DNA of 36,006 nucleotides from positions 1-36,006 of IMG/VR virus record IMGVR_UViG_3300024520_000249; one strand, given 5' to 3'. This document shows positions 6,289-35,486 of this stretch, one piece after another. The DNA is from a virus. The translations under genes and the position numbers were made by a program. The notes beneath the pieces were generated by a model. It ran no database searches. It was not told the origin of the DNA and saw only the letters and a program-made list of their open reading frames with translations. Each line of letters begins with the position of its first letter. Positions within the stretch are counted from its first letter, which is position 1.

Positions 6289-9200
6289 TTATTGATATGA
6301 CCTTCTGTACCACGTCAAAATTGATTTGATAAAGATAGGTTTTTCTGTTTGATATTCTAATTTAGTTGTCATATACCGGCCTCTCATCCGGGATCCGACA
6401 CTATAAATATTATTATTTGTGTTTGTTATTGAAGTCGCCCTAATTACCGGCAACCTCCATTGGTTCTCCTCATACTTTGGATCTAAATACTTTAGATTCT
6501 GTACAAATGGAAAATGAATCGCTTTCTGATGTTGCGTATCATAAGTGATGCGAAGAAGTTCCTGCGGATCAGAACTTATTGCCAGGTTGTCGAATACCTT
6601 AATTATATCAGCTTCCTGGTTCACGACATATTCTACAAAAGAAACGCTTGCTCCTGCTCCATAAAAATTAGTGTAATTGTCATTCCCTGATATTTGTTCA
6701 ACATCATGCAACCATGCCTGATCTAAGTTGTTTGGATTGATTGAAATAAAATCCTCATTAATGGAAATATAAAATGGAGATACAAATGACCGTTCTCCAT
6801 AGAACTGATCTAACCATTCATCAAAAACAATGGTTCTGTTGGGTGCTAATCCGTTGTAATTAAATGACCATCCGATCTGATTGTATTTCCTGTCAAAATA
6901 ACCGGCAATACCACCAGTGCTAACGGGATTGTCCGGAAATTCATTAATGATATCTGATTGTGATTCTACCGGTTCACAAAGCTCTGTTATTAACGACCTG
7001 ACCTTTTTGCTATCGCTTAACATCTCAGGAGCTGCTATTTGCCTCGGAACACGCCATATCTTGCGTTTGTTGAAGTCAATGCCATAAAGGAAGGCATCTG
7101 TCTCAATAATACTCCATTGATGCTGAGAGCCAACATAATCAGTGAGATTCTGATGTTTATCGGCCAATATGTCTCCTTCACCGATAGTAAGCTCGCCTGT
7201 ACTGGTTCCGCTATCCAGTATAGCCCTTTCGTTCACATAATGCCTGTTGATCCCTTCTTCCTGAATACTAATAAGAATACCATTGAAATTAACAAGTTTC
7301 GTTATCGCTCCTAATCTAAAATCGTACTCTTTGATAGCAGCAATAGCAACATCACGATAACTGTCAACAAAAGAACCGAACAGGTGTTTTGTACTGAATA
7401 TTATCCCGGCAGGTTTTTTATCATCACGATGAGGAATTTCATCATCAAATCCCAAATACGTTTTTTGGCTAAGGATCACATTATAGCCGGTATTGAAATC
7501 TTCTGCTTCCTTCTCCTTTTGCTTTGAGGCAAATCGTCCAATGTCCTTTATTGATCCGGGAAAGAACTTTTCTATCACTCCTTCGTGCCTTAACGCATTA
7601 TTGTATGCATTTTCAGTGATAATGGTAAACGAAACACCATAAGTATAAAAATTATCAATACCCGCAGGAAGAAATCCTGGTGGAGTGCCAAAATTCAAAA
7701 GAGAGGTATCATCTTTCATGCCGGTAGCATACTTAGGATTGAACAATTGCTTCATAAACACTCTTTGCAAAAAACAATCTCCTTTGTAAAAATTCACTCC
7801 ATTGACAAGTGTTGGTGTTGCTATCACATCAACAAGCTTAAAATACTTGCTGATCTTATGATAGGACGTTGATTTGATATCATAGAGATCTTCAACATCA
7901 TATCCAGCCCCAAGTGGATCGGTGATATAAATATTCACAAGTTTTTGCTCAAGATTCTGGACATTGGTATCGATCCCAATATATTTATTTGAAGCAATTT
8001 CCATGTTTTCAAATTCACCAAAAAATAACCCAAGCAAATCTTCCCTGAAAAAATAAAACATAGAATCAAAATCAGTCTCTTTCCCTTCGGTGAAATAAGA
8101 AGTGTATTGATTATTATTGGACTTCTCCCATTCTTTTATGTTGTAAAGCCCTGCTGAGCCATTAAATCCGGCACCATACGTAATAACAAGCGGATCTGAG
8201 GCATCAAAATAATATGCCTCTTTTGATAGATCTGTGTCCCTTGTCGGAATAATTCCTGATAAAACAGCAAACTCAACAACATGACCATTATTAATATCCA
8301 AACTCACATTAAAATGATGATCCATAGAATAAAATCCCCATTTATCATCAACCTTTGCTGTAAAGTCGTTATAACCAAACACAGCAGTATTTATACGCTG
8401 AAATACAGGAGCTATATCATAATTGGTTATGTAGGGGAACATCGCCTCTTTCGTTGCAGGCAGCCCAATGTCTTTTTCCGGCCACATAGGAAGAACATCG
8501 TCATTCCTGTGAAGAGGTTGTGGGTTATTCATTATCATGGGAAATAAAGACACTCTCGGGTCTGTCCCCCCGGTAGCATTAAAGCATGGCAATGTCACTC
8601 CCTGGTAAAGCAGGTTAGGATTGCGGTGGCCTCGTACAAAATAAAAACCAACTACATTATCCGTAATATATTGAGTAACCAATCCAAGTGCAGCAGTAAC
8701 GTCAAATTGAATTGCCATAATCTTTGAATCATTGGCAGCAGTAATAGGAGATACCACGTTATTTGGAAACCGATAAACACCACCTGTATTTACAGGACCT
8801 CCGGCACCGGCATAATCATCTGCTCCTTCCGTTGGAAACGCTTCTGTCTCTCGCCCATTCGTAAGAACAAACACCACTCCAAATGGATAAGATTCTCCCC
8901 TGAAGTAACCAACGGAACTACACACATTGGTTGCGTCATTATAATTGAACTTAGGGAACAGTATGGGGCCAATCAATTCTTTGTTGGGGAGCGTGAACGT
9001 ATCATCAAATTCAGGGACAATTGCCTGAGCAAATGCCAATAGATCGGCTGCTGCGGCATCATTGAAGTTAGTGCTATCTGATACATTGCCTGCAAAATAT
9101 CTGTTTTCAAGATGTGTGTGTGTTTTTGACCTGTCAAACCTGGTCTTTCTTTTCAAGAGATCCTCAAGTCCGAGATTAACAAATGTCTCATGCCCTGTGA

Positions 9201-14428: not shown

Positions 14429-14848
14429 TTAAAAATTACCCTGCTGCTGTCTTTTTTGCTTCTCCTTTAGTTCACGAAGTTCAGCCCAGTCGGTTACTAT
14501 ACCATAAAGCCAACTCCTAATCAACCAAAAGAAAGCATTTACAAAAGACGCACTCATACACACCGCAACCCATCTGAAAAGCTCCTTTAGTTCAAAAGCA
14601 ACTTCTAATTGAGATATACTCAGAACATTGACATCTGATTGAAAGCACCAGATTGTCCAGTAAATAGCAGTTCCCCAAAAGCTTGCAAGACACGGACAAC
14701 AAGCTATCAGTGGCCTTGCAATCCAAAAAGGCATCCATTTACGAAGAAAGAATAACCTTATTGGGAAACCTATTCTGCCCTGGTCTGTGATTTCTCTCAG
14801 ACCAAGGCAGAATAAGCTCACAATTGCTATTGTCCCAAATAAACTCAT
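14429..14848 (-). CDS. Small membrane protein with CCPCLASFWG motif (DUF1360-like)
   Basis: I chose ATG 14848 (MSLFGTIAIV, 139 residues) because it opens directly into a hydrophobic helix and avoids overlap with the previous gene; an ATG at 14869 would add seven residues. Hydrophobic segments lie at about residues 2-18, 40-68 and 91-118, so three spans are likely. The second holds ACCPCLASFWGT (49-60), close to the CPxCMxSVWG signature I associate with DUF1360-type phage membrane proteins. The C-terminus is a charged helix ending KEKQKRQQQGNF. The function of the family is unknown; holin-like activity or a role in membrane contact of the tail are possible. A membrane protein inside the neck gene block is notable. 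Confidence 0.7.
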   Translation of the reverse strand: MSLFGTIAIVSLFCLGLREITDQGRIGFPIRLFFLRKWMPFWIARPLIACCPCLASFWGTAIYWTIWCFQSDVNVLSISQLEVAFELKELFRWVAVCMSASFVNAFFWLIRSWLYGIVTDWAELRELKEKQKRQQQGNF

Positions 14849-14853
14849 TTGGA

Positions 14854-15669
14854 TTAACAAATGGCACAAGTGCCACCATTTGCAATAGGAATAAGCCCTG
14901 CAATCGGACCGTCAAAAGCTCCAAAGTTTGCGTCAAGAGAACGTACGTAGAAATAAACGTCTTTCTCGTAATCGTTCCAATGACTCGCACCATCGAGATC
15001 TTGTTCGGCTGCAGGAAGCATTATCCTGAAGTGATACTCGCAGTAACTTACCCCCTGCAACGGCAGGTCAGGTTGAGCCCCTTGAAGTCCCCAAGGAATC
15101 GGGAACAAGCGGTTCATGTAGTTGGAGTCCAATACGGCTGTAACAAAAGGCACAGTTTCTACGATGTTTGCTGATGTGGCAAATACATCGAAGTTACCTG
15201 TGGTGAATCCCACAGCGGCTTTATTGTAGTCGTAATCACAAATACCGGTGAGGGTAATTGTGTTGACTCCGCAACTTGCGGTAACACATGCAAATGGATC
15301 CGCATTAATCTGTGCGGTAATTGCTGCACAAACAGCTGCTGCTGTCGGTGTAGCTCCATTTGGATCCTGGTAGCAATAGACTTTCGGTGACGGAAAAGTG
15401 GTGTGCGTCTCATAGTCGTACAAGTCCGGAAGACAAGTAACCTGAAGACACCACTCATACGGACACTCGCATGTGGTTGGAATCAACACCTCAACAGTCA
15501 CTGCTCTCGGCACGCAGGCCGTAGTGCAAGATTTGTGAGATGCATTAACCAATGCCACAGTCACGTCTCCCCAAGGAAGAATAGTTGCTGATGTATTCAC
15601 AACAACATTTGCGATTTGAGCAGGATCTATATTGTTAATTAAGATCCTGTCTGCTTGTCTTCGTAGCAT
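14854..15669 (-). CDS. Cys-rich structural protein, probably virion neck or decoration
   Basis: This 271-residue protein follows the ring-type protein and starts at ATG 15669. It has 14 cysteines, many in closely spaced pairs (CTTAC, CECPYEWC, GTCAIC at the very C-terminus), and is otherwise beta-rich with little Lys. There is no signal peptide or membrane span. The Cys spacing does not form a standard zinc finger; disulphides or metal binding are both possible. Position within the capsid/neck block and its beta-rich composition argue for a virion protein. I cannot name a family. Confidence 0.7.
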   Translation of the reverse strand: MLRRQADRILINNIDPAQIANVVVNTSATILPWGDVTVALVNASHKSCTTACVPRAVTVEVLIPTTCECPYEWCLQVTCLPDLYDYETHTTFPSPKVYCYQDPNGATPTAAAVCAAITAQINADPFACVTASCGVNTITLTGICDYDYNKAAVGFTTGNFDVFATSANIVETVPFVTAVLDSNYMNRLFPIPWGLQGAQPDLPLQGVSYCEYHFRIMLPAAEQDLDGASHWNDYEKDVYFYVRSLDANFGAFDGPIAGLIPIANGGTCAIC

Positions 15670-33974: not shown

Positions 33975-34457
33975 TTACTCTCCCGGTGTGGCAGTCGGTG
34001 GCTCTTGTGGAGCTTCCGGTGCATTCTCGGCTTCTTCAGCTTGTGGTGCAGCTTTCTCCTGAGTGTCACTTAATGGTTGCTCGGAAGTTGTTTCTGCAGG
34101 AACTGGCTCTTCTGCAACTGGATCTTGTGGTGGAAGATTCCCTGGTGCAACCGGAGCAGGAGTCAGATTAGGATCAGCCACCGGCTCCGCAACCGGAGCA
34201 TTTTCCTGGCTTGCCGGAATACCCGCTTGAGGCACTTCGCTGGTAGGCCCCTCCGGCTGGGGCTGATCTTTTTTTTCAGCTTGAAGTTTTTCTCTTTGCT
34301 CTTTAGCATTTTTTTCTGCTGCCTGTGCAGCATCATACTGACTTCCTCCGGGGAGATAATCAGCTCCGGTGATACCTGGAGTGGCAGGGGTACTTTCGGC
34401 TGGTGCCTGGGCACCTGCGTCTGTATTCTCTGCCGGATCTTGTGTTTCTTCTGTCAT
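33975..34457 (-). CDS. Acidic Pro/Ala/Glu-rich protein, first gene of the late arm
   Basis: This 160-residue protein is almost wholly low complexity (Pro, Ala, Glu, Thr, Gln) and acidic. One helical, charged patch lies at about residues 40-66 (SQYDAAQAAEKNAKEQREKL), and the end is EAPQEPPTATPGE. It is probably intrinsically disordered. It starts at ATG 34457, about 80 nt downstream of the promoter at 34541, and a strong terminator follows the gene, so it may be made in higher amounts than downstream genes. Composition recalls the scaffold N-terminus and the acidic tail of the protein at 16407. A link to capsid assembly is possible but unproven. Confidence 0.65.
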   Translation of the reverse strand: MTEETQDPAENTDAGAQAPAESTPATPGITGADYLPGGSQYDAAQAAEKNAKEQREKLQAEKKDQPQPEGPTSEVPQAGIPASQENAPVAEPVADPNLTPAPVAPGNLPPQDPVAEEPVPAETTSEQPLSDTQEKAAPQAEEAENAPEAPQEPPTATPGE

Positions 34458-34540: not shown

Positions 34541-34571
34541 CAAATATACAAAACCTACGCGAAGCGTCAAA
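34541..34571 (-). promoter_or_regulatory. Bacteroidota-type promoter for the leftward late arm
   Basis: Minus strand: TTTG at 34571-34568, 19-bp spacer, TATATTTG at 34548-34541. This fits the Bacteroidota sigma-70 consensus TTTG-N19-21-TAnnTTTG exactly. Transcription would begin near 34535, leaving an ~80-nt leader before ATG 34457. Confidence 0.7.
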
Positions 34572-34676: not shown

Positions 34677-34700
34677 AATATAGGCAATGCAAAGATACAT

Positions 34701-34843
34701 AAAAAAAGGAACCCCAGGTAGCTATCCAACTTAGCGGAAGGTGCTGTCGCCTGGGGCCCGTGTGGTTGCTAAGAACTCCTGGATCCTAACAAAACCAGAA
34801 GTGAAACTCTTATGGATGCAACCACGGTTCCTCCCTTACAAGG
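34701..34843 (-). ncRNA. Candidate small structured RNA with own terminator
   Basis: Minus strand, about 143 nt. A long hairpin (34825-34762) consists of GTGGTTGC/GCAACCAC (8 bp), TAAGA/TCTTA (5 bp) and ACTTCTGG/CCAGGAGT (8 bp with one U-G), separated by 5-nt bulges on the 5' side only, and capped by a 12-nt loop. It is followed by a second hairpin, CCCCAGG/CCTGGGG (34756-34750 with 34718-34712) with an inner GCTA/TAGC stem, then a T7 run at 34707-34701: an intrinsic terminator. The U-G pair is an A-C mismatch on the plus strand, so the minus strand is favoured. A promoter-like TTG-N21-TATCTTTG lies directly upstream. No reading frame is apparent. Function unknown. Confidence 0.45.
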
Positions 34844-34848
34844 AGGTA

Positions 34849-34880
34849 CAAAGATATAACAATCCCCCCTATGCTCCCAA
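34849..34880 (-). promoter_or_regulatory. Possible Bacteroidota-type promoter for the small RNA
   Basis: Minus strand: TTG at 34880-34878, a 21-bp spacer, and TATCTTTG at 34856-34849. The -7 box fits TAnnTTTG; the -33 box is only TTG. Expected start is near 34843, just before the CCTCC/GGAGG mini-hairpin (34830-34846) and the long stem-loop. Confidence 0.4.
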
Positions 34881-34950: not shown

Positions 34951-35016
34951 CCCCCCTGATGTATGTGAAAATTAAATGTGTGTGTATATCCCCAATGTAC
35001 CCCCCAGCGATCCCCC
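34951..35016 (-). other. Cluster of G-tracts on the minus strand (possible G-quadruplex)
   Basis: C-runs on the plus strand at 34951-34956, 34990-34993, 35000-35005 and 35012-35016 give four G-tracts of 4-6 on the minus strand; three fall within 27 bp. Another six-G run lies at 34864-34869. The coding arms show nothing like it. Possible G-quadruplex or protein-binding site near the start of the early arm. Confidence 0.3.
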
Positions 35017-35064
35017 GTACCTCACAGCAATTTAAATCTTTATTATTAACCAAAACCCAAAATC

Positions 35065-35403: not shown

Positions 35404-35436
35404 AAAAGGGGAGCTAAGTAGGCTCCCCTTTTTTTT
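35404..35436 (+). terminator. Intrinsic terminator, copy 1
   Basis: AAAAGGGGAGC (35404-35414) pairs with GCTCCCCTTTT (35422-35432) around a TAAGTAG loop, and the T-run runs to 35436. It ends transcription of the gene at 35065-35400. Identical over 27 bp to the second copy 50 bp away. Confidence 0.9.
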
Positions 35437-35454: not shown

Positions 35455-35486
35455 AAGGTGGAGCTAAGTAGGCTCCCCTTTTTTTT
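35455..35486 (+). terminator. Intrinsic terminator, copy 2 (tandem duplicate)
   Basis: Positions 35460-35486 repeat 35410-35436 exactly. The 5' arm reads AAGG-t-GGAGC, so the stem has one bulged T compared with copy 1, but loop, 3' arm and T-run are kept. Together the two copies form a double terminator in front of the next gene. Confidence 0.8.

Follow-up and report, generated by a model that had tools for sequence, protein, structure and literature searches.

On the strand of the structural genes, at the junction between the two gene arms of a phage that is crAss-like by sequence, we found a predicted unit formed by a host-type promoter (P1), an RNA of about 140 nt with three hairpins and, as the last of these, an intrinsic terminator (H3). 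The reading that we consider most likely, and put forward tentatively, is a promoter-proximal terminator unit heading the late (structural) operon, with a terminated leader RNA as its product and the gating of late transcription as its role. Transcription, termination, read-through, and gating at P1-H3 are what we infer from the promoter consensus, a predicted structure beyond chance, the terminator, its position, and the occurrence of the same order in one relative.

The window, that is, the whole stretch of DNA analyzed, is a complete IMG/VR virus record of 36 kb, with genes matching the PHROGs families of portal, large terminase, and major head protein by function. The terminase shows about 31-32% identity to its nearest annotated relatives, which are crAss-like phages with Oafivirinae first (cr272, cr273, cr130, and cr124), and the window is, as judged from sequence, a crAss-like phage. 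No relative of this phage was present in genome_contigs, and therefore no host link could be drawn for it. The window consists of a leftward structural arm and only ~1 kb of rightward arm at its right end, and the candidate RNA unit is placed between the two, with the following features:

33975-34457, minus strand: first gene of the left (structural, late) arm, 160 aa, function not assigned
34541-34571, minus strand: promoter P3, TTTG-N19-TATATTTG, full consensus, with its -7 box at 34548, 91 nt ahead of the first late gene
34690-34697, minus strand: P2, a -7 box TATCTTTG with no -33 element, directly behind the T-run of the terminator
34701-34759, minus strand: H3, predicted intrinsic terminator, a 10-pair G/C stem with a structured 31-nt loop, then T7
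34762-34825, minus strand: H2, predicted bulged hairpin of 21 pairs
34830-34846, minus strand: H1, 5' hairpin CCUCCUU-GUA-AGGGAGG, predicted by folding
34701-34846, minus strand: predicted small RNA of about 140-145 nt comprising H1 to H3
34849-34880, minus strand: P1, putative host-type (sigma-ABfr) promoter, CTTG/TTG-N21-TATCTTTG as read in the sequence (consensus from PMC6847099; PMC7366714)
35065-35400, plus strand: first gene of the right arm, 111 aa, whose orthologue in the relative L024 fixes the synteny of the junction

The consensus for the primary sigma factor of Bacteroidetes is TTTG at -33 and TAnnTTTG, better TAHHTTTG, at -7 (PMC6847099; PMC7366714), and the -7 box spans positions -12 to -5 relative to the start (PMC9723704). 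Direct reading recovered the minus-strand TTG-N21-TATCTTTG element claimed in a preliminary description of this DNA, with TTG at 34880-34878, TATCTTTG at 34856-34849 and a G6 run in the spacer (34864-34869), while the leftward host-type -7 boxes of P2 and P3 had been overlooked there. Three TAHHTTTG boxes thus occur on the minus strand of the 607-bp inter-arm region versus ~0.15 expected from the within-gene density, which makes a chance origin of the cluster unlikely. Elsewhere on the late strand, only two boxes lay outside genes, one (20054) placed 5 nt ahead of a gene start and the other (1591) at the record's left end. This clustering of host-type boxes at the head of the late arm, with almost none between genes in the rest of it, argues for gating, as does the fact that promoter, structure, and terminator follow one another in the expected sequence along the same strand. 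Besides, host-type promoters facing the structural arm fit the probable use of host RNA polymerase for late genes in the crAss-like phages studied: in phiCrAss001 and phi14:2, early transcription is attributed to the virion RNA polymerase, and the host enzyme probably transcribes the late structural genes (PMC8375218; PMC10136315).

On the opposite side of the junction, the motif (T/G)ATCCCCC(G/C)TACCT lies ~45 bp ahead of the first right-arm gene (35009-35022, plus strand), surrounded by further C5-C6 runs, and also occurs in the relatives L024 and L031; we take it as a candidate for an early promoter or a regulator site, one that the virion RNA polymerase might use. After the same gene there are two near-identical rightward terminators (GGAGCTAAGTAGGCTCCCCTTTTTTTT) ~50 bp apart, at 35404-35432 and 35460-35486 on the plus strand.

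Given the placement of the -7 box between -12 and -5, the RNA is expected to start near 34844 (± a few bases), and a start at 34844 itself would cost H1 its two outermost pairs. Reading and refolding bore out the bulged hairpin reported previously (8+5+8 pairs, two 5-nt bulges on the 5' side, and a 12-nt loop): its first half runs GUGGUUGC, bulge AUCCA, UAAGA, bulge GUUUC, and ACUUCUGG, and the 12-nt loop UUUUGUUAGGAU is followed by CCAGGAGU, UCUUA, and GCAACCAC. The only non-Watson-Crick pair among the 21 is indeed U-G on the minus strand and A-C on the plus strand. The separate G/C stem-loop with an internal stem and T7 was recovered as well, its 10-pair stem spanning 34759-34709 (internal stem included) and the T7 run 34707-34701. 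H1 had been missed and, once it is counted, most of the predicted transcript therefore lies in hairpins. Overall, the sequence supports the earlier proposal of a discrete leftward unit of ~140 nt with its own promoter and terminator, presumably transcribed from P1. Within H1, ACCUCCUU corresponds to the anti-Shine-Dalgarno core of 16S rRNA, and eight bases inside a hairpin stem prove little.

The same segment could in principle encode a leader peptide or small toxin, as an 18-codon ORF starting with GTG (34825-34769, minus strand) is found inside H2 behind a GGAGG. However, ORFs this short are common by chance, and 35 of the 37 genes in the window have no Shine-Dalgarno-like motif upstream, as expected for Bacteroidetes genes (PMC6847099), so that the GGAGG is probably just part of H1. 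We regard this reading as highly improbable, and the scarcity of Shine-Dalgarno motifs in the window led to its rejection as the main explanation.

The comparison of folding energy with dinucleotide-matched shuffles, which had been suggested as a check, was run for the 142-nt minus-strand RNA: none of 200-400 shuffles was as stable as its -57.4 kcal/mol (z -3.2 to -4.0). When fold energies were computed for 514 tiles of 140 nt taken from both strands of the whole window, none of the tiles matched the stability of the RNA and two had a lower z, and the structure is therefore unusual, not unique. When folded alone, H2 reached a z of -5.0 on the minus strand and -3.9 on the plus strand. The statement that the element is more ordered than chance in AT-rich phage DNA holds as regards order, as given by the z values and the shuffles, but the stretch itself is not AT-rich, the G+C of the RNA being 0.52. 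The lowest z in the scan belonged to the tile of another element, a 22-pair hairpin (GAGCTTATTCTGCCTTGGTCTG...CAGACCAGGGCAGAATAGGTTT) at 14775-14830 on the minus strand, within a 146-aa membrane-type ORF (14429-14869); the 201-nt stretch around it had a z of -6.4.

According to the gating reading, host RNA polymerase would start at P1, the ~140-nt RNA would fold into its three hairpins, and the polymerase would stop at H3, releasing a stable small RNA. Transcription from P1 would be cut off ahead of the structural genes until read-through of H3 was permitted, either by a factor of phage or host origin or by an altered fold, and P2 and P3 behind the terminator could supply the late operon independently. 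This arrangement resembles, by analogy, the late leader of phage lambda, which consists of the pR' promoter, the 6S RNA, and the tR' terminator. In both cases a late promoter, a short RNA, an intrinsic terminator, and the late operon would follow each other in that order, with host RNA polymerase as the enzyme, and a late promoter closely trailed by an intrinsic terminator ahead of the late operon was found in the window and also in L024. In contrast, the sigma-factor consensus differs, kinship in sequence is not expected, and the window has two more promoters behind the terminator. Lambda also has the antiterminator Q for its late genes (PMC7171158). The window record includes just ~1 kb of right arm. 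The unit is not filed as a member of the lambda type.

The terminase search of IMG/VR recovered 22 relatives, few of whose contigs reach the arm junction, and the junction was read, aided by profile searches, in five (L020/L024, L018/L025, L031, L061, and L079). In L024 the genes flanking the junction are syntenic with those of the window, and the late promoter TTTGGAAGTATGGGGGGTGTTATATATATTTG can be aligned with P1, G6 run included; the alignment score was reached by 2 of 1000 shuffles when promoters only were compared and by 10 of 300 for whole regions. The late promoter of L020/L024 is followed within about 80 nt by a long-looped G/C hairpin and a T7 run. Syntenic flanks and a promoter alignable with P1 leading to a terminator argue for gating, and this shared order favors a role in cis. 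Against it, the RNA body is not common to L024, where H1 and H2 are absent and the covariance model of the window RNA detected nothing, and L025, L031, L061, and L079 have a late promoter and no terminator. The promoter-terminator pair is therefore present at the junction of one of the five relatives, with a different RNA. The order from promoter to terminator is common to two lineages but not general, and only a single sequence is known to have the three-hairpin RNA. In L025, the stretch 7440-7555 (plus strand) ends in GGTTCGAATCCTGTCCTGACTA and looks by eye like a tRNA or a tRNA-like element, of which ARAGORN reports none.

That L024 keeps the terminator and not the RNA body would also suit a simpler punctuation unit, in which the terminator blocks stray leftward transcription from a crowded junction, with its dense promoters and divergent arms, and the RNA is a functionless by-product. 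Yet a terminator alone needs neither H1 nor H2, both of which are far from chance (z -5.0 for H2), and we consider this explanation unlikely.

Another observation against gating is that the late arm could be transcribed with no need for read-through from P3, which has the full consensus and lies past the terminator. In L020/L024, no other TAHHTTTG occurs ahead of the first two late genes. For the window, P3 weakens gating and leaves as a close competitor, and as our main rival reading, a stand-alone regulatory sRNA acting in trans by base pairing or protein binding, whose gene would end at the terminator while the downstream promoters serve the late arm; we see it as possible, if somewhat doubtful. 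The unit is self-contained, with its own promoter, a 5' hairpin, a long middle hairpin, and a terminator, and the late arm already has P2 and P3 as promoters of its own. Moreover, it carries the sequence hallmarks of the high-confidence intergenic sRNAs of B. thetaiotaomicron such as GibS, a start site and an intrinsic terminator (PMC7366714), in that a predicted sigma-ABfr promoter and intrinsic terminator of its own delimit a short intergenic RNA. Unlike these sRNAs, the predicted window RNA is phage-encoded and much more structured. Its loops do not outperform shuffled loops in pairing with phage gene starts, nearly the whole RNA is paired, leaving little seed, and no homologue was found in any relative.

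In agreement with the preliminary description, which knew no matching RNA family, the Rfam 15 covariance models, including those of bacterial 6S RNA and phi29 pRNA, gave no match in the window at gathering score, and a relaxed search (E up to 10) returned only two chance-level matches near the region. In the phage collection, blastn found nothing at an E of 1e-5 and short chance matches only at an E of 10, and the DNA search of the contigs of the 22 relatives gave no match. Exact pattern scans of IMG/VR for H2, and for the promoter with H1, had no hits, and a covariance model of the RNA (R1) found the window alone among 32 sources, while 26 records gave no hit. As blastn, exact patterns, and the covariance model yielded no homologue, there was nothing to align for covariation. 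A scan for P1-like promoters returned eight stretches, with matching neighbors only in one relative already known, and the others look like chance. Single-protein searches with r35065 or RusA gave no relatives, and the 80 loci of the RusA profile were nearly all devoid of other genes of the window phage.

Among the more distant Oafivirinae, a single GTTGCA...TGCAACC inverted repeat, with arms 29-51 nt apart, was found on the late strand of the junction in all five genomes examined (L118, L119, L120, L123, and L126, for the junctions of cr273, cr130, cr124, cr272, and cr131), and in the window the basal stem of H2, GTGGTTGC...GCAACCAC, occupies the corresponding place. Both are GTTGC...GCAACC repeats on the late strand between the arms; however, the Oafivirinae repeat is followed by no T-run or T6, none of the five junctions has a TAnnTTTG box, and the spacing is shorter in four of them. 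In three of the five, the A before GTTGC faces a conserved C, which favors a DNA motif over RNA pairing, and the repeat may be a phage-specific promoter or operator. The same search found four GTTGC...GCAAC pairs within range in the 36-kb window, so that chance may account for the likeness, and the repeat is a lead only as a homologue of H2. A DNA-level element, in which the inverted repeats function not as RNA but as sites bound by a regulator or by the virion RNA polymerase, or as hairpins extruded for either of them, would agree with the shared position of these repeats and with the significant plus-strand fold of H2. Nevertheless, the U-G pair, the T-run, and the promoter all indicate a minus-strand RNA, closer relatives have no such repeat, and the fourfold occurrence of such pairs in the window also weighs against this very unlikely alternative.

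The packaging RNA of phi29 is another phage-encoded structured RNA. The window RNA shares these properties and a similar length with it, but has no Rfam match, has its predicted hairpins in series, and belongs to an unrelated phage lineage. With regard to the earlier suggestion of a regulatory or packaging-related RNA, a regulatory role is plausible because the unit heads the late arm, while for packaging there is no evidence beyond position.

Taken together, these results describe a credible, though unproven, element of a kind already known, either a small phage RNA or a late leader ended by a terminator, and one with poor conservation. A bolder view, which we judge rather unlikely, is that a lineage-specific RNA, which host RNA polymerase would synthesize as the late phase begins, acts in trans on a host component or gates the late operon by a new form of antitermination and so constitutes a non-coding early/late switch in Crassvirales. 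In the open-access literature, in a search that was not exhaustive, we found no description of a small RNA in crAss-like phages, and the present RNA, should it accumulate, would be a phage-encoded example from a group for which that search turned up none. For the presumed handover in crAss-like phages from their virion RNA polymerase in early transcription to host RNA polymerase in late transcription, two related phages offer a candidate component that is concrete and can be tested: the terminator that immediately follows their first host-type late promoter.
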